Shown piece by piece: positions 44,013 through 64,000 of a stretch of DNA of 64,000 nt (positions are counted from its first letter, which is position 1; each line of letters starts with the position of its first letter). The translations under genes and the position numbers were made by a program. The stretch is taken from contig JAPYXD010000715.1 in NCBI GenBank assembly GCA_030998225.1, forward strand, positions 7,816,501 to 7,880,500. Reading direction: 5' to 3'. Under the pieces are notes generated by a model that did not search any database, had not been told where the DNA came from, and saw only the letters and a list, made by a program, of their open reading frames with translations. Source of the DNA: Diplolepis rosae. Its lineage: Eukaryota; Arthropoda; Insecta; Hymenoptera; Diplolepididae.

Positions 44013-44204
44013 TGCTATTCTAAGAGGTTATTTTCCTCCTTGAAGAAGACTATTGACCTATACCTAGTTAAGAAATTCGTGGATGTTGTGGTGATTATTA
44101 TGGTGTATTTATTTTATATCTCTGTCTGCCTGTCCGGTGCGGACAGAAAATACATAAGAGCAAAAAAGATAGACGTCTTCTGTTTGTCCAATTACTGGTA
44201 ATTG

Positions 44205-44634
44205 AAATATGCAATAAGTTTATTTATTTACGCTAAAAATTGAAAAAAACATAATACCTGTAATTCAAGGCAGTGCAGTGGTTCATCACTTTCCATGTCT
44301 TCACCGTCAGGATTGAATATTTGTTAGAGTGAGATAAAGTATAGTTGTGTCTCACTCCAACCAATGGTCAACTTTAACGAAGAAGTTCCACAAAAGGTAA
44401 ACCACTGCACAGCCTTCAATGACAGGTATTATGTTTTTTTTAATTTTTAGCGTAAATAAATAAAATTATTGCATATTTCAATTACCAGTTAACGTTATTT
44501 TCAACGTAGAATTAGGATGAAAACATTTTGAATGTTTATTTTGCCTCATTCATGAGTTATAATGCTACTTTACGATAGCTTTACGATGGCTTTACGGTAC
44601 AGTGTAAAACTACCGTTCAGCCAGTTCGCTAGGG
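44205..44634. mobile_element. Foldback element family B, left-truncated copy
   Basis: It matches the complete copy at 56099-56676 and ends CGTTCAGCCAGTTCGCTAGGG. The left arm is cut at AACTGGTAATTGAAATATGC-type sequence. The pol remains start immediately after its right end. Confidence 0.75.
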
Positions 44635-44664
44635 TTAGGATCAGAATTTTTTCAAGATAAAAGT

Positions 44665-47600
44665 GTGAATATAAACTATACTTCAAAATGCTTAGTAATT
44701 GAAAACCATTGTTACCCTTTTAAATCTACCAATGCATTTACTATTCCAGCTCGAACAGTTACAACATTTTATGTTAATATAAAAAATACAGAAAAGAGTG
44801 AAGGGTATGTACCTCCATTACATATCCAAGATGGCGTCTACTTAGGTGACGCAGTTGTAAAAAATCACAAAGGAAAAGCTTATTTAAAATTTGCAAATAC
44901 AAATGAAACCCCAATTACATTATCCGTCCCATTAGTTAATTTAGAAGACTTTGAAGAACAAGAATGTTATAAACAAATTGAAAATTTAATTAACTTCAAA
45001 CAAACAAATAACGAAGATTTATCAAGTAAAATATTAAATAACTTTTTAAAAACTGACAATTCTCTAATTAACTCATGCAAATTTTATAATGTAACAGACG
45101 AAGACAGAGTAGAATGTATTAAAAAACTTCTTCGATTAGACCATTTAAATCAAGATGAATATGAACATGTAGAAAAATTAATTAAAAATAATGCAGACAG
45201 ATTTCAAATCCCAGGAGAACCACTTTTGAAGCTACTAATGTATTACAACATTCAATTCCTACTGTAGATGACGCTCCAATTTTTTCAAGACAATATAGAT
45301 TTCCCCCAGTTCATAAGGAAGAAATTACAAGACAAGTGGATGAATTATTAAAAAATAAAATAATCAAGCCCTCAAAATCACCATATAAAACTCCAGTGTG
45401 GATAGTTCCAAAAAAAATTGATTCTCAAGGAAAAATAAAATGGAGAATGGTTCTTGATTTTCGTAAATTAAATGAAAAAACAATTGGCGATTCGTATCCT
45501 CTACCTAATATAAATGATACACTTTATTCTCTAGGATCAGCAAAATATTTTTCAGTGTTTGATTTAGCCACCAGTTTTCACCATATAAAAATGGACCCAA
45601 AAGACTCTCATAAAACCGCATTTTCCACACCTCACGGTCATTACGAATTCGATAGAATGCCTTTCGGTATAAAAACTGCACCAGCCACATTTCAGAGATT
45701 AATGGATTTAACATTAACTTGATTAATCGGAACGGAACTTTTTGTATATCTTGATGACATAGTTATATATGCAAATACTCTAGAAGAGCACGAAATTAAG
45801 TTTAACAATTTAGCAGAAATACTTAGAAAAGCAAATCTTCACTTACAACCAGACAAATGCGAATTTTTACGACCCGAAGTAGGATATTTAGGTCATATAA
45901 TTGATAAAAATGGAGTACGTCCAGATCCAAAAAAGAAAATAGCTGTAAAAAAACTTTCCAGTCCCAAAAACACAAAAAAATATTAAACCATTTTTAGGCT
46001 TTGCATGATATTATAGACGTTTTATTGATGGATTCTCAAAAATTGCAAGTCTTTTAAATCAACTTCTAAAAAAAGATATACCTTTTAATTGGACAGAAAA
46101 ACAACAAGCAGCCTTCGACATTTTAAAAGCAAAATTATGTGAAAAACCACTTTTACAACGACCTGATTTTTCTCAACCTTTTATACTCACAACAGATGCC
46201 TCAGGATTTGCAATAGGAGGTATTTTATCACAAGGTAAAATAGGTAAAAATAAGCCAATAGCATATGCTTCACGTAGTCTAAGTGATACTGAGAAAAAAT
46301 ATGATACATATGAGAAAGAAGCTCTTGCTATAATATTTTGTGTAACTCATTTTCGTCCTTATTTGTATGGGAGAAAATGTACTTCAGTGACTGATCACAA
46401 ACCTCTAGTTTGGTTTCAAAATTCTAAAGACCTTTGTTCACGAGTTTCACGTTGGAGATTGAAACTCGCAGAATATGATTTTGTTGTAATTTACAAAGCA
46501 GGAAAAATGAATGTAAATGCAGACGCACTCTCAAGAAACCCTATTGATACTAACAAAGAGAAATCAAGATATTTACAAGTTGATGACAATGATACTTTTA
46601 TGACTTCCCAAGAAAAAATGTTTTCCAAGAAAACTTTTACAAGAAAAAAACAAGAAAACTCTAAAAATAAGGTAAGACCTTCAAAACGAAGAAACTTGAA
46701 TCCAGGAATCGTACCAGACGACGTTTATCGTTTTAGCGAAATTTCGGAAGCCCAAATATTAAATATCGACTCAAAAATCCCAGAATATTTCCAGAAATTT
46801 CTTAGTGAAGAATTATTTAGTGAGATTGGTAAGAATATTTTAAAATACACAAATTTATTCAAAAATATGGCTTCAAGACTTATTTTTATGACAATATTTT
46901 TATTAAGTCCAGTGTTTTCCAAAAAATACGAAAATTTATCATGGAAAACTATTACTACGAGAGCTCAAAAGAGAATACAACAAGAAAAAGCAAAAAATTT
47001 GAATGGAAATGACACTCAAGAAAAATTAGACGAAAATTTTTCTTCTAAACCTCTTGTGAAAAAACCACGAGGTAGGCCAAGAAAAAATCTACTTACAAAT
47101 TTGAAAAATATCCCCTCTCAAACAAAAAGAAAGAGAGGTAGACCAAGAAAACAAATATATGAAGATGAATTACCAGAAATAAATATGCAAAAGGGAAGCC
47201 GAACAAAAGTAGAATCAGATTCCGACTCTGATCCTGATTATTTAGATTATTTGAAAGAAACTCAAGCAGAAAACAAAAAGAAGAAGAATGCCAAGAAGCC
47301 AAAAAATATTAATGAATTTGAAAGTGAAGAAAGTGAAAATTATTTTTTAACCTCAGAAGATGAAATCAACGACATTGAAACCTCACACGAAGGAAATGAT
47401 GGAGAAAATTATGAAGAAAATTGGGAAGAGAATTTTGAAGATGATCTTGAAGACGATTTTGAAAAGAATTTCGAACAGAATTTTGAAGATAATTTTGAAG
47501 ACAATCTTGAGGAAAATTTTGAAGAGAAGTTTGCAGAAAACCAAGAAGAAAAATTGGAAGAAGAATTTGAAGAACCTTTTTTTGACGAAAATTTGAGATT

Positions 47601-49175
47601 AAACCGAAGATCTCAAATAAATTCTGAAAAAATCGATAAAGATTATGATAATTATATTCGTGCACCCCCAGAACCTCCTCCTATAAACTCTCAAACAGAA
47701 AAAATTATAACAAGGAAAAATTTAGTTGAATGTCGCGATCAATTAACTATGCGAAAAGATAATTATGCATATTTTGTTACAACAAATGGAACTCCTCGCG
47801 ACAACGGATCAAAAACTTTAGGAAAACGTGAAACATTACCAAAATTTAAAAATTTACAAAAGGGAATAGCAAAAGAGATTAAAAAAGGAAACTACTACCA
47901 TTTTGCACTTCCCATTGAAGATGAAACTAAGGACAATTTATCAGAAACTTTAAATAATATAAAATTACCAATTCACTCATTACATGAATTATCTCAAAAA
48001 TTTAAATTACGATCAATTAGTATTTCAAAACTTCCAGAATTAATCATACACCTTGGGAAGAAGTGAAATCAATTTTCGATTCAATTTTTTCAAATTCAAA
48101 TACAAAAATTATTGTTTGCAATGGAATAACGCAATATCCAACAAAGGAACAATGAACTCATTTAATTGAAGAAGCTCATTCTTCAGCATTAGGAGGCCAT
48201 AAAGGTGTCACAAACACTTATAGCCGAATTCGCCAAAAATTTTTTTGGGAAAATATGAAAGTAGACATTCAAAAATATATTCAAGGCTGTTTACAATGTC
48301 AACTGAAAAAATTAATCAGAGTCAAAACAAAAAATCCTATGGTAATCACTGACACATCCACTACTGCTTTTGAAAAAATATCAGTGGACATTGTTGGTCC
48401 ACTACCTGAAACAAAATCTGGTAACTTATAGATTCTAACGTCACAAGACAATTTTACAAAATATTCTTTAGCAATACCTCTTCCTAATCACCAAGCTAGT
48501 ACGATAGCAGATGCTTTCGTGAAAAAATTTATTTGCATATTTGGATCACCGAAAGGAGTACTCACTGACCAAGGCAGAGATTTTTTAAGTAATTTATTAA
48601 AAAGATTGGCAAAACGTTTTAGAATTAAACAATTTCGTACCACAGCTTTTCACCCTCAATCAAACGGGTCGTTAGAACGTTCACATCATGTTTTAGGAGA
48701 ATACCTCAAACAATTTGTTGCAAAAAATTCAGAATGGGATGATTGGCTTGAACTAGCAATGTTCTCGTATAATACTAGTGTACATGAAGGCACAAAATGC
48801 ACACCCTATGAATTGGTTTTTGGTAAACTAGCTCGTGAACCTTCCAGTGAACCTTTATCACAACAAGAAAAATCACAAACGTATGATGATTATTTAATTG
48901 ATTTCGTAACACAACTACACGAAATGCGAACACAAGCAAGAGAGAATCTTATTTCAGCAAAAGAAAAATCGAAAATATATTATGATAAAAAAATAAATCC
49001 TTTAGAAGTAAAAATTGGAGATAACGTATTTTTATTAAAAGGAGGTAAAATTAAAAAACTTCACAGCCATTATACAGGGCCTTATGAAATATTGGAAGTT
49101 TTAGGAAAAGAGAATGTAAAAATAAGCTATAAAGACAAACCTACTGTAGTTCACATTAATAGACTAAAACGCTAA
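44665..49175 (+). pseudogene. pol: Ty3/Gypsy-class pol of an endogenous retroelement (RT, RNase H, integrase)
   Basis: It opens in the protease-RT linker (44665-45267), then a frameshift leads to RT: WRMVLDFRKLNEKTI (about 45440), FSVFDLATSFHHIKMD, and after a TGA at 45721 the FVYLDDIVIYA box with catalytic DD (about 45740). Another frameshift near 45975 precedes KPFLGFA. RNase H has LTTDASGFAIGGILSQG (about 46190) and ADALSRN (about 46525). Integrase has the HHCC zinc motif (AHSSALGGHKG, CLQC; about 48175-48305), then catalytic residues in SVDIVGP, LTDQGRDF and SNGSLERSHH, and a GPYEI motif. Stops at 48154 and 48429 and several frameshifts show it is dead. gag, most of protease and the 5' LTR are missing. 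Lineage: Ty3/Gypsy with downstream env. Confidence 0.92.
46540..47625 (+). other. AT-hook and acidic-repeat insert within pol
   Basis: Between RNase H and the tether before integrase, the frame holds ~360 residues not usual for Gypsy pol. There is a basic part, then two AT-hook cores (KKPRGRPRKN at about 47059 and KRKRGRPRKQ at about 47128), then VESDSDSDPDYLDYLKE, then an acidic tract of imperfect NFED/DLEDDFEKNFEQ repeats (about 47400-47580). RGRP cores bind the minor groove of AT-rich DNA, so a chromatin-tethering role for pol or integrase is a reasonable inference. The frame is intact through all of it despite decay elsewhere. Confidence 0.75.
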
Positions 49176-49401
49176 CATATGCAAGTACAAAAGTAAATAA
49201 ATAAAAATAAAATATCTGTACTTTAATTATATATATATATACAATTTAAATAAAGATATAGAAATTTTATTTTGTCGATATTGAGTACAAATATAAAATT
49301 TGTTTTTTGAAAATATATATTTTATATATAACATAAAAAAAATATATATATGAAACAAAAGAAAAATGAAATTTCAGACATAACACATTATTCCAGATAT
49401 A
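49176..49401. other. AT-rich spacer between pol and accessory ORFs
   Basis: Short AT-rich stretch with TATATATA tracts. It ends in a splice-acceptor-like CATTATTCCAG at 49386-49396, a few bases before the next start codon. Confidence 0.4.
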
Positions 49402-49713
49402 ATGGAACAAATTCATCGCAAACGCATAGATGATCTCATTGAAATAGTTCCCTGTTTTATCGACATGGTATCTCTCTGGCCATATTTAATTCAAACTGTA
49501 ATTTTTAACCAAGACGACTGTAATATTCCCACATGGAGCAGAAACTTAAACAATCCAGATATAATAAAAGACAATTTTTCAACAATCAAAACAAGAGGAC
49601 CGGACGCATACAAAAATTTAATTCTCAGTTTACGGCTATCAAATCACATTGTCATAGCCGACATGTTGGATATAATGAACTGGGAACGCAAAATACAAAA
49701 AGTAAATCAATAA
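49402..49713 (+). CDS. CARD-like accessory protein of the retroelement, 103 aa
   Basis: An intact ORF. Residues about 4-92 fit a caspase-recruitment domain: HRKRIDDLIEIV (helix 1), a hydrophobic LWPYLIQTVIF helix 2, then DNFSTIKTRGPDAYKNLILS, where the RGPxAYxxLIxxL helix-turn is very like helices 4-5 of insect initiator-caspase (Dronc-type) and Apaf-1-type CARDs, and finally NHIVIADMLD (helix 6). The protein is almost only this domain, with no caspase or ATPase part. It lies between integrase and env, with a YAG acceptor-like TTCCAG six bases upstream of ATG, so it may be made from a spliced mRNA. CARD-only proteins can act as decoys in apoptosome assembly; that role here is inference. Another death-fold class is possible. 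Confidence 0.68.
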   Translation: MEQIHRKRIDDLIEIVPCFIDMVSLWPYLIQTVIFNQDDCNIPTWSRNLNNPDIIKDNFSTIKTRGPDAYKNLILSLRLSNHIVIADMLDIMNWERKIQKVNQ

Positions 49714-51562
49714 CTTCAAAAATATACATATGTAACGATAAAACATTTTTCTATCCTTATATTGCAAAGCAAGCTGCTAATTGGAACCTCCTTTTTCCAG
49801 AGATGGGATTACGAGGCTTCCTTCTGGCACTGCTCACTTGCAACTTCAACTATATAACAACAGTCTACGCCATCATAGGATTCGATTGCGGTTCAAATCG
49901 ATCAAATATTATGACATTATCTTTACTAGAGGTAGGAGAATGTGATCTACCTCGATCTCAAGTACATGGTGAAAGAACTTATATACAACTTTTACAATTA
50001 ACTGGATTTTCAAATACAAAAGTAATACAATGCAAAATAGAAATTCGACGCGCCATCTCTCATTGTGGTATGCATTCTCACAGTTCCATAGTTGCAAATG
50101 GCCACAGTGAATATATACATGATGTTACACGAGATCAATGTAATCAAATGCACACAATAGGAACATTTTTAGTAACCCCTTCTCTTCAGATATCAAAGTT
50201 AAAAGTAAATGAAATTTCATTTCATAGCGTTACTTTAGCAGGTTCTGTAACACCTAATGGAGACTGTACTGGTACACAATTTTCTGATCCATATGGAACA
50301 TGGAATAATGTCGTAGTCCAAGCAATATTCAAAATAACCTTACAAGAACATTACGCGACTATTCATTTAAATCCAAATAAAATTCAATTAGGATCTGGAA
50401 TGACATGCAGACTTTCATACACATTCTGTACAGACGTAGAATATGGACAAACATTCTGGGATACATTACCTAATGACGTATGTAATTTTAGGAAATATGA
50501 TATTATTTATGAAGGACCAGCAAATAAAACTTATGACTACACGACAGACAATTCTGAAACCTTTTATTCTTAAACGACTGAAGATATAACCTTTGTATTG
50601 GCTGAAAAAACAAGAAAACCAGTTTGCAGTTACGTTTTAATACAAACCGAACATCCAAAATTATTAATTTTTGAAACCAGACCTGGAAATTCATTTTTAT
50701 AAAACAAACATTTAGAAGTTAAAAATATGGACATTTTTACATACGTTAACTCTAAATTTATATATGTGGAACGACATATACGCACTGAAGTAAATAGACT
50801 TTATCACGATGTTCTTACTCAACGATGCATACTTGAACAGCAAGTTCTTAGAAATACATTAACCTTAGCAACCCAATCACCAGAGGAATTTGCATATCAT
50901 TTAATGAAAGGTCCAGGATATATGTCAGTAATTGCAGGAGAAGTAGTACATATCGTAAAATGTATACCGGTTGAAGTAAAATATCGCAAAACTGAACAAT
51001 GTTATCTACAACTACCAATATTTAGAGGGAATCAGTCCTTTTTCCTTTCTCCACAAACTCATATATTAACAAAATCCGGTATCCAGACAAATTGCAATTC
51101 TTTCCTTCCACCAATAGACCTTTTTGGAGAAACCTGGTACAAATTACTTCCAAATCCTGTCGAATCCATAGCACCAACTATAGTTAAACCTCGCACAAAA
51201 GCAACCTGGAAATAAACAAATCCTTCATCCATAGCAACAAGTGGCATTTATTCTCAATCTGATCTTGATAAACTGCGAGATCATATTATGTCAGTGATCC
51301 AAGATCGTGGGAGCTGGCGGCCCCCACCAGGCTCCCACGTGGGATCGTACACAATCAAGCGCGCCGTGTCGGTGTGTCCCCACTTCCTCGCTTTGATTTG
51401 ACGCTCTCGTCTGTTGAGCCAAGATCGAAAATTATGTTTTTGTCGACTTCGTGTCAAAGTGGCGCGAAGCAGACGATAAATTTTAAATCACTAAATATAT
51501 CATTTAAGATATTACCTTTCTTTCTTTGATATTTTTAAAAACATTTACCTTAAATGCTACTG

Positions 51563-52886
51563 AAGATATAGATGCAAGTACATATGTAGTATAAAATTAC
51601 AAAGGATTATTTATGAAAATTAGCTTAGAATTGCTAATACGAATTCTACACTGTTAGAATTTTCTACCGCAATTTCCCAGAACATGTGAGTGGAGTTTTA
51701 TTCAGCTACAGCCTCCCAAAATTTAGACAAAATTTCAGGAAATTCTGTTACTTTTTATAGTAAATTTATGAAAAAAATTTTTTTTATTAAACTTCAGTTC
51801 CAAAGTGTTGAATATTCTGTATATTCTTCCCGGGAAATACTGATACTTGTAATAGGAATAATTTTGCGTTTTGGTAACTGAAGTTCAATGCACTTACATG
51901 CACCTGAACATTCATCCACATGCAACTGAAACTCAGTTACAGTTACGCAATTTTATGATAATTTTATAAAAATTGTGTTACAATTTGGTAGTTTTTAAGA
52001 TACATTTTTTGAAAATGAAGAATTTTCTAATTAAAATAGGTTACTAACAAAGCTACAGAATTTCTAATCAATACCTTAACTTGAACTTTTAAACATTTAT
52101 TGACTATGGAATTTTATTGATATTTGTAAAAACATTCGCCTAATAAAAACATTTTTGAGATTATGTAAAATTCTTGGAAAATTCTCATCAAAATTTAAAG
52201 TCAATAAATATTTGAAGATTTAAATCAAGATATTAATAAAACATGTTTCCGGTTTAAAAATTTTATCAACTGCATCAATTAGAAAATTTTGCCTTTGTGT
52301 AAAGCATTTCTTTTTTTTCCATTAAAAAGTCTATGCATATAAGCCACTAAAACGTAAAATGAGAACTTGAAATTGGAAAAAATGTACTGAATTTTTATAT
52401 ATATAAAAAGAAAAGCTTTCTTAATATTATGAAGCTCAACTGAATTTTCAAAAAATGTATCTTAAAAACTACCAAACTGTAGCAGAACTTTTATAAAATT
52501 GTCATAAAATTGCGTAACTGTAACGGAGTTTCAGTTGCATGTAAGCGCATTGAACTTCAGTTAACAAAACGTAAAATTATTCCTATTACAAGTATCAGTA
52601 TTTCCAGGGAAAAATATACAGAATATTCAACACTTTGGAACTGAAGTTTAATGAAAAAATTTTTTTTTATAAATTTACAAAAGAGTAACAGAATTTCCTG
52701 AAATTCTGTCTAAATTTTGGGAGGCTGTAGCTGAATAAAACTCCACTCACATGTTCTGGGAATTTGCGGTAGAAAATTCTAACAGTGTAGAATTCGTATT
52801 AGCAATTCTAAGCTAATTTTCATAAATAATCCTATGTAATTTTATACTACATATGTACTTGCATCTATATCTTCAGTAGCATTCAG
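51563..52886. mobile_element. Near-perfect 1.3-kb palindromic element
   Basis: The left arm from CTACTGAAGATATAGATGCA through CACTGTTAGAATTTTCTACC and ACATGTGAGTGGAGTTTTAT is mirrored almost base for base from 52660 to 52886 and further inward. The arms are more than 500 bp with a short AT-rich centre near 52200. No gene. It is nested in the hAT-like element. Confidence 0.8.
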
Positions 52887-53079
52887 ACACTAATATATAC
52901 CAATTTTTTAGTTGATTTACATTAGAGTTATGTGAAAGAATTTTATTGTTATTCCTAAGGAAGTTTTTAGATAATTTACCGATGTTTTCTGTAAAATTTT
53001 ATGTAAATTTTCTTACGATATTTTAAATTTTTTGCATTACCAAAGTTTATTCAAAAATAGAGCTCATATGTGCAATATT

Positions 53080-53210
53080 TTATCCACTGTTTTAAAATTT
53101 TAGAAATAAAGATCACTGATGAGGACTCAGATTAGAGTCGAAATTGTGACTTCCTGAGTTATCATTTTTAAACCCTAAAGCCAATTATGAACAACAACAT
53201 CGTATACAAT
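53080..53210 (+). ncRNA. Hammerhead-ribozyme-like motif in a repeat
   Basis: ATCACTGATGAGGACTC, a short AGATTA loop, then GAGTCGAAAT fits CUGANGA, a 5-bp stem II (GACTC/GAGTC) and GAAA. It is followed by ACCCTAAAGCCAATTATGAA, the same flank as at 13.6 kb. Stems I and III are not convincing, so self-cleavage is doubtful. Confidence 0.35.
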
Positions 53211-53985
53211 TTCTATCTACTATCACCATGTAATTAGGAATGTAGATTTTTAACCTTAATTTCTTATTTTTTTTAAATCAAATATTTTCCACTTAATTTT
53301 TTAATTGATATAGTTGATTCACGTACTATAACATTTTTTAAAACTATTTCATTCGAAATAAATATTTTATATTTGTATTTTATATAAGAGAAATTTGGCT
53401 TTTTTTGGCTACTTTTTTGGCATTTAAAAAATATTTAAAACAATAATTTTATCTCGGATTTAGATTTACATAGAGCGTAATTGTATAAAAAAAGTATATG
53501 CCAATTTTTAAAGCGATCGGTCGAAAACTTTTTAAGCTAGAGTGTACACAAATTTGAAAAAAGTCATTTCGAGAAAAACGCGTTTAAGACAAAAATTCAA
53601 GAAATCAACAAAGTCGAGACTGTAATGAGATAAATTTTTAAATTCAAGAAAACAACAAAGTCGAGACTGTAATGAGATAAATTTTTGTACTTACTGATTA
53701 ATCAGCGATTCCAGCACCATATAGTGATCCTACTTCTTCTTCATAAATTTCATTTTGAGCTTGCAAATCATCTTTCCGAGTTTTCCGAGCTTCCTTTGTC
53801 TCCAAGGCGCTATGTCGATGTTGTCGGCATCCACTTAAAGACGATTGTAGCACCGGAACAAATTGAAATTTTTCATTGAAACTTTGGGAACATATTCTTC
53901 GATAGTTTTACTAACAATTTATGATATAGAAAAAAATTCGATTTTTTGAGTAATCTAAACCTATTTTCCCTCTTAAATCAACCTA

Positions 53986-54742
53986 AAGGGTTTCCCAATA
54001 GGGGTGATATGATTTTGAATGTCCCTATCGGGCTCATTTGAACTGAAATTTTTGACGTCTGCTGTCAGTTGTCATCAGTAAGGTTTGCCATTTAATCATG
54101 AGTAGTTTCACGCTTCCACAACGTTTGGAAATTGTCCAATTATTTTATCAAAATTCGAGAAGTTTTGTCGGTGTTCAAAGAGCATATCGTGCAAAATATG
54201 GTCGTCATTCTGCTCCATCCGCGCTCTCAATTCGTCGAATAATCTATAAGTTGGAGAGTGAATTTACTCTATTGGATACTAAGCCTAAAAATCGTATGCG
54301 TACCGCACGTTCTACACAGAATATAGCCGCCGTACAGGCCAGTATCGAGGAAAACCGTGAATTGTCCGTGCCACGCCGATCTCAGGAATTGGGCCTGTCC
54401 AGGATGACTACCTGGCGTATTTTGCGATTGGATCTTGGCCTGCATCCCTATAAGATGATTCTGGCCCAAGAACTGAAGCCTAATGACCATCGTTTGCGTC
54501 GGGAGTTCGCGGATTGGGCTCTGGAATCAATTGAAAATGATCCCAATTTTCATCAAAAAATCATCTTTTCTGATGAGGCGCATTTTTGGCTCAAGTCTCG
54601 GGGGACATTTGGCCGATATATTGTTTAAATCATAAATGGCATAGAATATCCAATATAATAAAAAAGATTTCGATCAATTCCGAATGAATATTCAGTGTTT
54701 TTTTTCAATTTCAAAACATATCACCCTTATTGGGAAACCCTT
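53986..54742 (+). mobile_element. Tc1/mariner deletion derivative, copy 1 (757 bp)
   Basis: The ends AAGGGTTTCCCAATAGGGGT and the complement of ACCCTTATTGGGAAACCCTT are flanked by TA (53984-53985, 54743-54744). It encodes a 176-aa transposase N-terminal part at 54098-54628: an HTH region (SFTLPQRLEIVQLFYQNSRS; LSVPRRSQELGLSRMTTWRI) and the first catalytic Asp in IIFSDEAHFWLKSRGTF, then a stop. The rest of the DDE/D domain is deleted. The almost identical copy 2 at 62452-63209 shares the same deletion, so the short form itself has been mobilised. Confidence 0.88.
54098..54628 (+). CDS. Truncated transposase (DNA-binding part), 176 aa
   Basis: Open frame of the derivative above, from MSSFTLPQRLEIVQLFYQNS to SRGTFGRYIV. 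It keeps the bipartite helix-turn-helix region and ends shortly after the first catalytic Asp, so it could bind ends but not cut. By eye it differs from the 62567-63097 copy at a handful of residues (for example Y/D in RIIxKLES, R/H in ENxELS, L/F in RLDxGLH). Confidence 0.75.
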   Translation: MSSFTLPQRLEIVQLFYQNSRSFVGVQRAYRAKYGRHSAPSALSIRRIIYKLESEFTLLDTKPKNRMRTARSTQNIAAVQASIEENRELSVPRRSQELGLSRMTTWRILRLDLGLHPYKMILAQELKPNDHRLRREFADWALESIENDPNFHQKIIFSDEAHFWLKSRGTFGRYIV

Positions 54743-55587
54743 TAAAATTCAAAATAAAATGTTTAGATATTCATTTTAGGTAAATGTTTTTAAAAATATC
54801 AAAGAAAGAAAGGTAATATCTTAAATGATATATTTAGTGATTTAAAATTTATCGTCTGCTTCGCGCCACTTTGACACGAAGTCGACAGAAACATAATTTT
54901 CGATCTTGGCTCAACAGACGAGAGCGCGAAATCGAAGCGAGGAAGTGGGGACACACCGACACGGCGCGCTTGATTGTGTGTGCTCCCACATGGGAGCGTG
55001 GTGGGGGCCGCCAGCTCCCACGATCTGGGATCACTGTATTATGTTTCCAGCAGAAAAACCAATGAGTCTAAATTCCTTAGCTAGAGAAATAACAGGACAT
55101 CCAACTATTAATCAAGGAATATCATTAACGAATTTATTTAATGAAGATGTAATTGTTAAAATTGCTGAATCCGCATGGGGTAGATTTTGGACAATTTTTA
55201 CAAGTTTTGGAACTACTAGTGCAGGCTTAATTGGATTAATAATAATAATTAGAGGGATTAAATTGATAGCGGATACCATTATTCATGGATATCCACTACA
55301 CAGATTATTTGGATGGTCTCTCTATCTACTAGGCGCCTTCTGGGATTCGGTCACTAACCTCTTATTACACTTAAGTACCCATCGACCATCTGGATCTCCT
55401 GCTGAGAGCCATCAAGAACTGCTGACAGCTTCAGCGCCACAAAGCTAGAAAGAGGCACCTAAAAGTCCATCGTATTACGCAAATACTACTTCAGGTAAAG
55501 ATCACAATAATATAAACACAACTCTTTATCCTGGCTCTGAACTAAAAGAAGAAGCTTAGTAGAACCCACTACTCTATCCAAATCTAA

Positions 55588-55911
55588 CATCTTCAGAATG
55601 TCGCATGTTCCTTTTACAACCTTATTAACAAAATTATTCAACAAAGAGGAGATCCACCCCTCATTTATGAGATACTCATTGAAGAAAGCAATAATAATGA
55701 ATGTCTATTTCACGTTAATTTACAATATAAAAACTATATAATAATGAATAGTGGCAAAGATAAAGAAAATGTAAAGCAAAAGGTAGCACAAAATTTATAT
55801 AATGCCTTAATTAATGAATCAAAGGAAACAAATCAAAACGTCCAACCAAATTCTACTAGTAAAAATTGCAAAAAATTAAACGAAATTTGCGCTCAAAATA
55901 AATTTGAGTAA
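55588..55911 (+). pseudogene. Double-stranded-RNA-binding-domain accessory ORF
   Basis: The open frame reads LINKIIQQRGDPPLIYEILI, then CLFHVNLQYKN and VKQKVAQNLYNAL. This is the alpha-beta-beta-beta-alpha plan of a dsRBD: helix 1 ending QRGDPP, a YEI strand, a FHV strand, and helix 2 with K-Q-K-x-A. A Ser/Asn/Lys-rich tail follows to the stop at 55909. The best ATG (55599, directly after CATCTTCAGA) is in another frame, so a single-base indel near the start has broken it. It lies ~40 bp after the env tail stop at 55557, in the same direction. dsRBD proteins of insect viruses suppress RNA interference; a similar role in this retroelement is inference. Confidence 0.65.
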
Positions 55912-56098
55912 CCAAAATATACAGTATTACGAATAAAAACCTCATCAAAAGACTCAACATACATAGCGCAAACAAATAGGAATAGCAAACTCGATAGTAA
56001 CAGCTAAGGATTTTGCTACCATAAAAGTTATTAATTCTCTTTCGCATAAAGACGAGAAATGTGAACTAAGTTTGATAAACTCAATATAACATTTACAT
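55912..56098. other. 3' region of the retroelement
   Basis: AT-rich, no gene. No LTR or polypurine tract is visible before the foldback element that follows. Confidence 0.35.
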
Positions 56099-56676
56099 CC
56101 CTAGCGAACTGGCTGAACGGTAGCTTTACGCTGTGGCGTAAAGCTATCGTAAAGCTATCGTAAAGTAGCGTTACAACTCATGAACGAGGCAAAATAAACA
56201 TTCAAACTGTTTTTATCCTTATTCTACATTGAAAATAACGTTAACTGGTAATTGAAATATACAATAATTTTATTTATTTACGCTAAAAGTTAAAAAAACA
56301 TAATACCTGTCATTGAAGGCAGTGCATTGGTTCATCACGTTCCATGTCTTCACCGTCAGGATTGAATATTTGTTAGAGTGAGATGAAAGTATAGTTGTGT
56401 CTCACTCCAACCAATGGTCAACTTTAACGGGGACGTTCCACAAAAGGTGAACCACTGCACTGCCTTCAATGACAGGTATTATGTTTTTTTAACTTTTAGC
56501 GTAAATAAATAAAATTATTACATATTTAAATTACCAGTTAACGTTATTTTTAACGTAGAATAAGGATAAAAACATTTTAAATGTTTATTTTGCCTCATTC
56601 ATGAGTTATAATGCTACTTTACGACAGCTTTACGCTATACAGCGTAAAGCTACCGTTCAGCCAGTTCGATAGGGTT
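56099..56676. mobile_element. Foldback element family B, complete copy (~578 bp)
   Basis: The ends CCCTAGCGAACTGGCTGAAC and GTTCAGCCAGTTCGATAGGG are inverted; the arms run almost to the centre (GTCTTCACCGTCAGG). Another copy abuts the 5' end of the pol remains (44205-44634), so the retroelement is bracketed by this family. Confidence 0.8.
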
Positions 56677-57277
56677 TGTATCATGTTTGACCCCAGGGTA
56701 GAATGCAAAAGAAAAATTCTAAAAATATCTTGATAAGTTCACAAAATACTATGAAGAGTAACCTTCAAAATGAGACCAAAAACGTTTAAAAATTTTAATT
56801 AATTTCAGTATTATTAATATTTTTCAAAAAGATCGAAATTTGACGTTTTTTTGCAATATATTCTTATAAAATTATCATTTTACCTTCAACTTGGGCTCAG
56901 ATGCAAAATTTTATTCACTTCCATGCTATCATGGGAAAAGAAACTTCGACTTGTTATTATAAAAATTAAGACACTTTAAGAATAGCTAAAACAGCAGGTG
57001 AATAAATAATTTTGACCGGTAGTGTATAGACTAGTCTTTTAGTTTAGGTATCTCAAATAGGGCTCATATGTATAATATTTTATTTATTGTACTTACAATT
57101 TAAGAAATGAAGATCACTAATGAGGACTCTGATCAGTCGAAAAGTTTGAAATTATATACAACATCGTATGAAATTAAATATATTGCTACTTACGTGAACA
57201 AACTGCACGCTACTTTCTCCAAAGTCTCGTGTGCCTTCTCTAGGTTTTTCTACTTGGGGGATCAAAATTTCAAAGTC
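56677..57277. other. Spacer with Tc1-end and hammerhead-like relics
   Basis: GACCGGTAGTGTA (about 57014) resembles a Tc1-type end. ATCACTAATGAGGACTCTGA then AGTCGAAAAG near 57110-57140 is a decayed copy of the hammerhead-like repeat. No gene. Confidence 0.4.
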
Positions 57278-57628
57278 TTATGGAGAAGAAACAGTCGCCG
57301 GTTTAATGTTCGCATCACTTTGACACTTTGACACATCACTACCCGACAATAAATTTAGCGTTGGAACCGAACCGTAGTTTAAAAGAAAAACGCCATTCCT
57401 CTTCTGGTAAAAACATTGTTCATTGAAATGTCGATGACAAACAAAATATTTTCTTTCCAATACTTGGAGGTATTCTAACCTCGACAAGTAGGGATTTACG
57501 CATGCTTCTATCCATCGTTGTCCATCATTTTCTTTCTTCGGAAACCGATGAATAGACAAATTGTTCTTCTGACCCCTTTTATAGGTACACCCACTAACCG
57601 CACACTGCATTTCGTACTTCGAATTCAT
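57278..57628 (-). CDS. THAP zinc-finger domain ORF, 116 aa
   Basis: A C2CH zinc-dependent DNA-binding THAP domain at residues ~9-92. C-x4-C (CAVSGC), IHRFPK, RWIEAC, CHRHF (Cys and His ligands) and SVPTLNL include all residues that define the family (C, C, P, W, C, H, F, P). After the domain comes a ~25-residue Ser-rich end. THAP domains occur in host transcription factors and at the N-terminus of P-type transposases; this ORF has no transposase behind it, so it may be a domesticated protein or a first exon. A GTAGTG after the codons for LSG could be a splice donor. Confidence 0.75.
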   Translation of the reverse strand: MNSKYEMQCAVSGCTYKRGQKNNLSIHRFPKKENDGQRWIEACVNPYLSRLEYLQVLERKYFVCHRHFNEQCFYQKRNGVFLLNYGSVPTLNLLSGSDVSKCQSDANIKPATVSSP

Positions 57629-61451: not shown

Positions 61452-62451
61452 TCAGATTTCCTGTGGAAAATATATCACCAGAATATCTTTCGTTGGATAA
61501 GCTTTAAAGTGCGTAAGTAACTGATGTCCGAACTTTATTTGTTTACTACTATCAACAAGAGTTAAAAGACACTCTTTACAGTCCTGAAATCGTTTCCTAA
61601 GTGCAGAAACAGAAAATCCTGCACAGTAAGAAATTGCATTATCTTGCAGTGTCACTATTTTATAACAATTTAGGATGCTTTCCAATTCTTCTAGATTATC
61701 TTTGATGTCTTCATGTTCGTTATCGGTCTCAGTAACTGTTTCGTTAATAATGTCCTGTTCAAATTCATCATCGTCGTCAGTGTCTATGGCTGTGTCTACA
61801 ACGTTGATAACATCAGTTTTACAGTTATCATAGGAAGGTGTTTCTTGTGTAGAATAATTATTACTGTTAGAAATTTTATAATCAAATGATTCATTTAATC
61901 TACCAGGACTGACAAATAATTGTTCATCGTCATCTATTTCACAATTTGCAGATGTCGGAGGAGTTAGAAGACGATTCATTACAACGTATTGCAAATTTTG
62001 TCGAAATTGAGTTGCAGTGGGATTATTACCGTACGTAACACGCTGCCTTAAAACAGAAAATAGATTTTGAATGGGATCTTGTTGCAAATGGCTTGTTAAT
62101 AGATAATGAACTCCTTCCTCTTGTAGATCCTTCCACAATTGTAAAACTGCTGTCAGAGTAATTTTCATTGATATAAAAGTTGGAGGTGGCTTTGATTCTG
62201 GATTACTCATTTTCCACGTGTCAATCCAACTAAGAGCATCTCTTAATGTTTGTTCAACTTGATTATTTTTTCTACTTAAGGGTCTTCTCAAAGGACTGGG
62301 GTCACGAATTGTTCTGCTATTCATACAATCAAACAAATCGTTCATTTTCTTAATGAATGTCCCAAGTGAACGTGCTTCTTTTTTCGAAATGTTACTGCAA
62401 CTATTTATTAAATTTGACAAAGTTAAAAGTGCTGTGGAAACGTCATTACTA

Positions 62452-63209
62452 AAGGGTTTCCCAATAAGGGTGATATGTTTTGAAATTGAAAAAAAAACAC
62501 TGAATATTCATTCGGAATTGATCGAAATCTTTTTTATTATATTGGATATTCTATGCCATTTATGATTTAAACAATATATCGGCCAAATGTCCCCCGAGAC
62601 TTGAGCCAAAAATGCGCCTCATCAGAAAAGATGATTTTTTGATGAAAATTGGGATCATTTTCAATTGATTCCAGAGCCCAATCCGCGAACTCCCGACGCA
62701 AACGATGGTCATTAGGCTTCAGTTCTTGGGCCAGAATCATCTTATAGGGATGCAGGCCAAAATCCAATCGCAAAATACGCCAGGTAGTCATCCTGGACAG
62801 GCCCAATTCCTGAGATCGGCGTGGCACGGACAATTCATGGTTTTCCTCGATACTGGCCTGTACGGCGGCTATATTCTGTGTAGAACGTGCGGTACGCATA
62901 CGATTTTTAGGCTTAGTATCCAATAGAGTAAATTCACTCTCCAACTTATCGATTATTCGACGAATTGAGAGCGCGGATGGAGCAGAATGACGACCATATT
63001 TTGCACGATATGCTCTTTGAACACCGACAAAACTTCTCGAATTTTGATAAAATAATTGGACAATTTCCAAACGTTGTGGAAGCGTGAAACTACTCATGAT
63101 TAAATGGCAAACCTTACTGATGACAACTGACAGCAGACGTCAAAAATTTCAGTTCAAATGAGCCCGATAGGGACATTCAAAATCATATCACCCCTATTGG
63201 GAAACCCTT
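62452..63209 (-). mobile_element. Tc1/mariner deletion derivative, copy 2 (758 bp)
   Basis: Same ends (AAGGGTTTCCCAATAAGGGT), TA flanks (62450-62451, 63210-63211) and internal structure as copy 1 but in the opposite orientation. It encodes the same 176-aa truncated transposase at 63097-62567 on the minus strand. It is inserted in the P-type transposase, which dates it after that element. Confidence 0.9.
62567..63097 (-). CDS. Truncated transposase (DNA-binding part), 176 aa, copy 2
   Basis: Open frame from MSSFTLPQRLEIVQLFYQNS, nearly identical to 54098-54628 and ending at the same position after SDEAHFWLKSRGTF. Both copies remaining open may mean recent insertion, or selection for a binding-only protein; two copies cannot decide which. 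Confidence 0.75.
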   Translation of the reverse strand: MSSFTLPQRLEIVQLFYQNSRSFVGVQRAYRAKYGRHSAPSALSIRRIIDKLESEFTLLDTKPKNRMRTARSTQNIAAVQASIEENHELSVPRRSQELGLSRMTTWRILRLDFGLHPYKMILAQELKPNDHRLRREFADWALESIENDPNFHQKIIFSDEAHFWLKSRGTFGRYIV

Positions 63210-64000
63210 TATAAACTTGAGTTGCTGATTTTACATTCATTAAATCGAAAGGACCTGGAAATAAATGTGTTTCCGTTAGTTTAGGACACGCACGAACGAT
63301 ACCCTGGGAATCCTTTCGATATAATTGAACAAGGGTATTCCAGGAGATTTTTTCTCCTTTTTCCCCAAATAGAATATCATGTTTTTATGAGTATTCCTGA
63401 AGGTTTTCAGTAGGTGAACCCAATCGAAAAGAGCATAAATTTTCTTTCCGTTTAAATTGATGAAAGGTTTATTCATGGTAACCCCTAAGTTTTTGAACAT
63501 TTTTCGATTTGGAGCACCTTGATCGCAAATACTTGCTTTTACATCTAAACCAATTTTCAAAAGCTCCGAAACGACGGATCGCCATACCTTTTCTAGCATT
63601 TCAGCTTTAATAGGGCCAGCTGATAAATAATACGCAACAGGCAGTTTCCAATTGTATGTTAATCCGCGTACCATAAATACCAATACATGAGATGCTTGTT
63701 CTGAGTTTCTACTCCCAAACTCACCAAGATCTTGAAGTCCTTCTTCGAAATCCCATTCTTTATCATAAAAAACCCATTTTTTTATCGTCATTTCGTCAAA
63801 GATCACAACGCATTTTTTTTGCATTTTTGACATAGTTTTAACGAAGCTACTGAATTGTTTTATGACTGCATTGTCTATCCCGGCTTTCATACGCAACACG
63901 CTCACCCATCTTTGCACGGTTCTAACCGATGGTAATTTAAATCCCATTTTTTTAAATGCCTTATATTGTCTCGGAGATCTGTAGCACATAGCTAAAGAAA

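Follow-up and report, generated by a model that had tools for sequence, protein, structure and literature searches.

Results

A CARD gene between integrase and env

The window analysed here, a stretch of 64,000 nucleotides from contig JAPYXD010000715.1 of Diplolepis rosae, contains the relic of a retroelement with an envelope gene (env). Between its integrase and env lies an open reading frame (ORF) that a sequence-only reading had taken for an intact gene of 103 codons, encoding a caspase-recruitment domain (CARD) and nothing else. The frame does run from an ATG through 103 codons to a stop (49402-49713, forward strand); however, the family gene has 93 codons, and the window copy has lost its stop. 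We compared 49 loci (L001 to L049), chosen as the best CARD matches, 48 of which carry this CARD and one of which, L014, does not; the 48 span four subfamilies, A together with A2, B, C and D, the last with a single locus. The family ORF is CARD-only, without another domain; 46 of the 48 loci have its stop at codon 94. In the window copy codon 94 is TGG, and the last 10 codons are read-through; an in-frame stop falls inside the 103 codons in 145 of 150 matches in the same genome (the best 150 of 1165 candidates). The 93-codon frame is intact at 45 of the 48 loci, a count biased by their choice as best matches, and no intron interrupts the CARD at any of them. The word intact fits the open CARD frame of the window copy but not the element around it, which is decayed: env is split, and neither a gag match nor a long terminal repeat (LTR) was found.

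The genome searched (757.7 Mb, 428 contigs) gave 1165 first-look candidates, the best 150 of which were scored and are all 89-100% identical to the window ORF. All 50 candidate proteins matched the window ORF at E ≤ 1, and profile searches retained 79 of 243 and 88 of 607 candidates at E ≤ 10; among viral contigs, no relative was found with the window protein or with the first alignment. Integrase upstream and env downstream, both within 1.5 kb, accompany the CARD at 40 of the 48 loci, which bears out in relatives the placement proposed for the window; env alone is near at four (L002, L007, L021, L045), integrase alone at three (L018, L032, L046) and neither gene at one (L028). The CARD sits in the same place in all four subfamilies seen and is a constant component of the element.

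Assignment to the CARD family

The reading of the ORF as a CARD holds up through its relatives, whose scores support membership of the family PF00619. All nine genome matches in one search, eight of them in the element's family, exceed the curated cut-off of 23.9 bits, and the copy at L012 scores 30.9 bits. The predicted model of the L012 copy is confident and has a six-helix death fold of the CARD type. In fold comparisons with this model the CARD of Apaf-1 is nearly as close as those of initiator caspases, and the matches also include the CARDs of MAVS, RIG-I and MDA5. Six of the eight weak Foldseek matches to a model of the window copy are CARDs or a CARD-based design. When diverse family profiles are compared with solved structures, those of initiator caspases (caspase-9, CED-3, Dronc) come first; the matches listed at E ≤ 10 include neither Apaf-1 nor Dark chains. 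The likeness to Dronc and Apaf-1 proposed at the outset is thus upheld by profile for the caspases but not for Apaf-1, which comes near by fold. We take R13 and R56 of caspase-9 to be residues of its Apaf-1-binding surface; among 20 aligned rows, the position of R56 is basic (K or R) in 18 and holds E in two.

Several observations weigh against a caspase-type CARD that acts on the apoptosome. Pfam gives no hit at E ≤ 10 for the window protein, perhaps because several of its residues, V33 and N58 among them, are not those of most relatives; its model is poor (predicted local distance difference test score 64, from an alignment of 34 mostly near-identical rows). No Foldseek match of the L012 model reached E 0.001, and helical bundles may reach middling Z scores without kinship. 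With the near-identical alignment, a designed helical-repeat protein ranked first among solved structures (E 3e-4), and Dronc appeared at E 0.38, beside T4 lysozyme. The position of R13 holds C or I in all 20 aligned rows. Among caspase loci, a local profile gave nothing convincing as a host Dronc or Dark CARD.

Two other assignments were considered and rejected. The match to the designed helical-repeat protein (E 0.0058 in one search; in that at E 3e-4 no single stretch passes) reflects helical composition and is gone with diverse profiles, and a protein without a death fold is ruled out by the relatives' Pfam scores together with the predicted fold.

Constraint and splice-like signals

Rates of nonsynonymous and synonymous substitution (dN, dS) were compared among seven hand-picked representative loci, which give 21 pairs. 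Between subfamilies, the proportions of synonymous (pS) and nonsynonymous (pN) differences in the CARD are 0.64-0.83 and 0.16-0.33. The dN/dS ratio of the CARD is 0.11-0.40 in the 11 pairs for which it could be computed, dS being saturated in the other 10, and its two highest values (0.40 and 0.37) belong to pairs within subfamilies. The low ratio between subfamilies indicates that the CARD is under selection. Integrase of the same loci gave ratios of 0.035-0.39 in 19 of 21 pairs (with one stop codon skipped in L040), and its ratio is below that of the CARD in all seven between-subfamily pairs computable for both (0.035 versus 0.12 for L012 and L017). Judged from these sequences, the CARD is constrained, yet changing faster than integrase, as host-facing genes do.

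Sequences resembling splice acceptors stand just before the CARD and before the probable start of env in the window (Table 1). An AG five to six bases ahead of the CARD ATG recurs at 44 of the 48 loci and is missing in L019, L027, L045 and L047; an acceptor-like site also precedes the env start wherever that start was seen (A, A2, B and C). We infer that CARD and env would be made from separate spliced messages.

Three further cases touch on transcripts. Two relatives, P0068 and P0069, are annotated isoforms X6 and X5 of Belonocnema LOC117169146 and differ before and after a family CARD; they may be a reflection of spliced CARD transcripts. In P0072 a single frame continues from the first half of the CARD into a PF24664 envelope, as if a deletion had fused CARD and env. 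For the copy at L007, reverse transcription of a spliced message was considered, but part of the acceptor is still present at its junction, which looks like a deletion.

A host CARD-only gene and the direction of transfer

The nearest relative found without integrase or env alongside is a host gene of the type seen in the same genome at C395:2883529 (L076), which has two exons, an 89-base GT..AG intron and 101 residues. It scored 73.6 bits, and the next row 54.0, among the best 150 of 748 candidates. Against LOC117174601 of Belonocnema kinseyi (Cynipidae) its two exons reach 85% and 69% identity, and against LOC127278982 of Leptopilina boulardi, which we take to be a cynipoid wasp, the identity is about 59%; these values make a cynipoid wasp the probable host. 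P0064 has the same intron place, unspliced. Like the element CARD, the host gene (LOC117174601, LOC127278982 and C395) is CARD-only, and the two are about half identical (45-73% by exon for C395). Unlike the element CARD, it has an intron, is apparently single copy in the genome searched and, at C395, is flanked for 1.5 kb in both directions by sequence that matches neither integrase nor env. A different CARD ORF, that of L014 (C284:24095373-24095615, reverse strand), scores 29.2 bits against PF00619; integrase and env frames were not seen alongside, and it is probably a host gene too.

The element CARD had been described as possibly captured. The intron-bearing host gene, about half identical, agrees with this, but the trees do not settle the direction of transfer. 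Rooted on CED-3 and caspase-9, they place the host genes inside the retroelement-type CARDs and mildly favour a transfer from element to host. On this view, the host gene would be a domesticated retroelement gene that acquired its intron later. However, the outgroups sit on very long branches, and a tree that holds all retroelement-type CARDs together is not rejected (AU, approximately unbiased, test p 0.304; p 0.208 in a second test); some database rows in the trees come from short contigs and are presumed to belong to retroelements. Moreover, an intron in the host gene and none at the 48 element loci fit capture of a spliced host mRNA by the element better. We regard the reversed origin as possible but rather unlikely.

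The full-length element

Three copies of subfamily B, read in separate pieces, carry LTRs of about 1.3-1.4 kb at both ends, with left-right identities of 98.1% (8 mismatches, 5 gap openings), 99.8% (2, 1) and 98.5% (3, 1). In all three the LTRs run TG..CA and are flanked by 4-bp target duplications (GAAG, ATAC, CAAG), the length also typical of errantiviruses; the spans calculated from coordinates are about 21.6, 21.1 and 21.2 kb. A primer site, presumably the complement of a tRNA-Gly end, follows the 5' LTR, and the hallmarks of an LTR element, including a polypurine tract, are present in all three copies. The order of genes is gag, protease, reverse transcriptase, integrase, CARD, chuvirus-type env, a gene with a double-stranded RNA (dsRNA)-binding domain (dsRBD), and further ORFs. 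Gag has zinc knuckles (PF00098), and the protease motif was recognised by eye in L050. The gene behind the chuvirus-type env encodes a 212-residue protein with dsRNA-binding motifs (L051:559-1197; PF00035, 34.2 bits, cut-off 23.0). It is followed by an ORF of 105 residues and a baculovirus-F-type env (L051:1830 to L071:299; PF12259, 36.0 bits, cut-off 24.1), so that one element has two envelopes, and finally by an ORF of 161 residues and one whose dsRNA-binding motif and zinc knuckle both score below cut-off (L071:1603-2031).

Single pieces of A and A2 contain the first dsRBD gene (29-30% identity to B) and the F-type env (26-27%), arranged as in B; the other subfamily-B ORFs have no match in them, and by eye the A/A2 ORF ahead of the F-type env resembles a further dsRBD with cysteines. 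An origin of the 21-kb layout by nesting of unrelated elements was rejected, since three copies each have one LTR pair with target duplications; the first dsRBD gene and F-type env shared in order by A and A2 (26-30%) also speak against it. The pol matches in the window (PF00078, PF17917, PF22938) are gypsy-like, and by sequence the element is a multicopy gypsy-class endogenous retrovirus lineage. The dsRBD genes behind the chuvirus-type env are candidate suppressors of RNA interference (RNAi). Genes with dsRNA-binding domains also occur in L057 and L059.

The copy in the window

Table 1. Features of the element relic in the window
Feature	Position	Strand	Match or remark
Pol remnant	44665..45267	+	by eye, counterpart of the L050 stretch between protease and reverse transcriptase
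Reverse transcriptase remnant	45336..45722	+	PF00078
RNase H end, then AT-hook-like/acidic pol spacer	46363..48066	+	PF17917 (RNase H end)
Integrase, C-terminal half	48519..49175	+	PF22938; weak PF00665
Splice-acceptor-like site just before CARD ATG	49390..49401	+	attccag/atata; AG at 49395-49396
CARD-only gene, the 93 family-wide codons	49402..49680	+	
Ten read-through codons and stop	49681..49713	+	family stop lost (TGG) in window copy
Splice-acceptor-like site before probable env ATG (49803)	49789..49802	+	ends cctttttccag/ag
Chuvirus-type envelope, first part	49803..51215	+	PF24664; two frames
Insertion splitting env	51292..55036	.	265-bp inverted repeats, 95.8%
Chuvirus-type envelope, last part	55037..55448	+	
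Remnant of dsRNA-binding-domain gene after env	55618..55968	+	24% identity, E 1.9e-9

The window copy is a relic, with pol spread over separate frames (Table 1). The 7 kb upstream gave no match to gag, the surroundings of the copy yielded no LTR, and no PF12259 envelope was found in the window; its likeness to a fuller subfamily-A copy ends at about 56098. Three pieces of env match PF24664, a Jingchuvirales-type glycoprotein family (E 8.7e-83, 6.7e-69 and 2.3e-37), and the insertion that splits the gene is bounded by the inverted repeats 51292-51556 and 54772-55036.

Further features of the window lie in and around the element. The pol spacer between RNase H and integrase (46363-48066) contains a strongly acidic repeat as well as two AT-hook-like GRPRK motifs. 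The element remnant is flanked on both sides by a palindromic repeat of about 0.45-0.59 kb, whose two copies (44194-44643 and 56244-56683) are 91% alike. Inverted copies 99.5% identical over 762 bp lie at 53984-54744, inside the env insertion, and at 62450-63211; an ORF in the former (54098-54628) begins with a DUF4817 helix-turn-helix and is transposase-like. An ORF of 116 residues at 57278-57628 on the reverse strand resembles a THAP-type zinc finger.

Discussion

A caspase-type CARD that lacks a protease can occupy the CARD of Apaf-1 or Dark and so exclude the caspase, which is the mode of CARD-only regulators. We think it fairly probable, going by sequence, predicted fold and analogy, that the element's CARD is such a gene: an accessory gene amounting to an initiator-caspase prodomain without the protease, which would block the host apoptosome. 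Made from its own spliced mRNA, the CARD would bind the CARD of host Apaf-1/Dark and keep Dronc, the counterpart of caspase-9, off the apoptosome; the cell expressing the element, or receiving it, would then survive until particles or new copies form. The role as apoptosis blocker is suggested by a precedent, as a CARD-only iridovirus protein inhibits apoptosis (PMC4457926).

An alternative explanation is that the CARD does the job of the host CARD-only gene (C395, LOC117174601, LOC127278982) in a CARD pathway other than the apoptosome, for example by blunting or tuning the assembly of an immune signalling complex. CARDs serve several pathways, the fold matches include MAVS, RIG-I and MDA5, and the host gene, the nearest relative without integrase and env, has relatives in two named wasps. 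However, the diverse profile puts initiator caspases ahead of all other CARDs, and we consider this explanation unlikely. Still less probable is a CARD that has no host target and assembles with itself for the element's own purposes, such as particle assembly, RNA packaging or envelope traffic. CARDs are known to polymerise, and the gene lies between pol and env in all four subfamilies seen; but the profile is that of caspase prodomains and not of filament CARDs, and the CARD evolves faster than integrase in seven of seven pairs, as expected of a host-facing gene. A passenger or chance frame without function is hardly credible: the window copy is decayed and has lost its stop, yet the 93-codon frame is intact at 45 of 48 loci (a biased sample), and copy number, fixed place in four subfamilies and low dN/dS between subfamilies rule it out.

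The apoptosome-blocking accessory gene that we favour has its closest viral parallel in iridovirus CARDs. GIV-CARD of grouper iridovirus, CARD-only and 91 residues long, inhibits apoptosis and lowers caspase-8 and -9 activity (PMC4457926), and lymphocystis virus likewise encodes a stand-alone CARD, the range being about 91-99 residues. However, iridoviruses are large DNA viruses, unlike the LTR element here, and GIV-CARD is said to be like human ICEBERG (PMC4457926), whereas the present CARD is like those of initiator caspases. Lymphocystis virus CARDs are weak fold matches in BFVD (E 2.5 and 3.7), and no retrovirus protein is among the 15 matches listed there, several rows of which are nameless.

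For the element itself, parallels come from several systems. Anakin elements (PMC7642597) are likewise LTR elements with a chuvirus glycoprotein, but their pol is BEL-Pao, whereas the pol described here is gypsy-like by its Pfam matches. In Hymenoptera, copies of Jingchuvirales glycoproteins lie beside Gypsy fragments (PMC10084718), likewise a chuvirus-type envelope near an LTR element; the available text reports no clear glycoprotein capture by Gypsy, whereas the three copies described here are one unit from LTR to LTR. Unlike both systems, as far as those texts go, the present element adds a CARD, dsRBD genes and a second envelope; in the available main text, "apoptosis" is absent from PMC7642597 and PMC10084718, "CARD" from PMC10084718 and "caspase" from PMC7642597. 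Errantiviruses and other env-bearing gypsy elements (PMC13172572) share the gypsy-type pol and the baculovirus-F-type envelope (PF12259), and the same paper also mentions gypsy elements that carry type III fusion glycoproteins; the element here differs in combining both envelope types in about 21 kb with a CARD and dsRNA-binding genes. TRADD-N death-like genes near or fused to animal retrotransposons (PMC8195603) likewise bring an immune or cell-death adaptor domain next to retroelement genes, but the cases in the available text are lineage-specific host fusions, whereas the CARD described here is an accessory gene retained by an element with env. The claim that no LTR retroelement with a CARD has been described stands for the titles and abstract openings listed in searches of open-licence PubMed Central, among which none was found; these do not cover Chary and Hayashi 2025, which reportedly treats env-bearing retrotransposons of metazoans and is likely relevant.

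We tentatively suggest, not without some doubt, that the element represents a complex gypsy-type insect retrovirus lineage with two unrelated envelopes, an anti-apoptosis CARD, at least two anti-RNAi dsRNA-binding proteins, and a CARD exchanged with its wasp host. Anti-defence accessory genes are a hallmark of complex vertebrate retroviruses, whereas the usual picture of insect elements with env is gag-pol-env. The presence of a conserved CARD together with dsRNA-binding genes and two envelopes would mean that apoptosis and RNAi exert selection on insect retroelements as they do on free viruses. If true, this would be, to our knowledge, the first retroelement seen to attack both main antiviral defences of the insect cell with dedicated accessory genes. 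The related host CARD gene would offer a case of gene traffic between virus and host that can be resolved by more wasp genomes, and the blocking of cell death by a retroelement in an insect host becomes a directly testable question.
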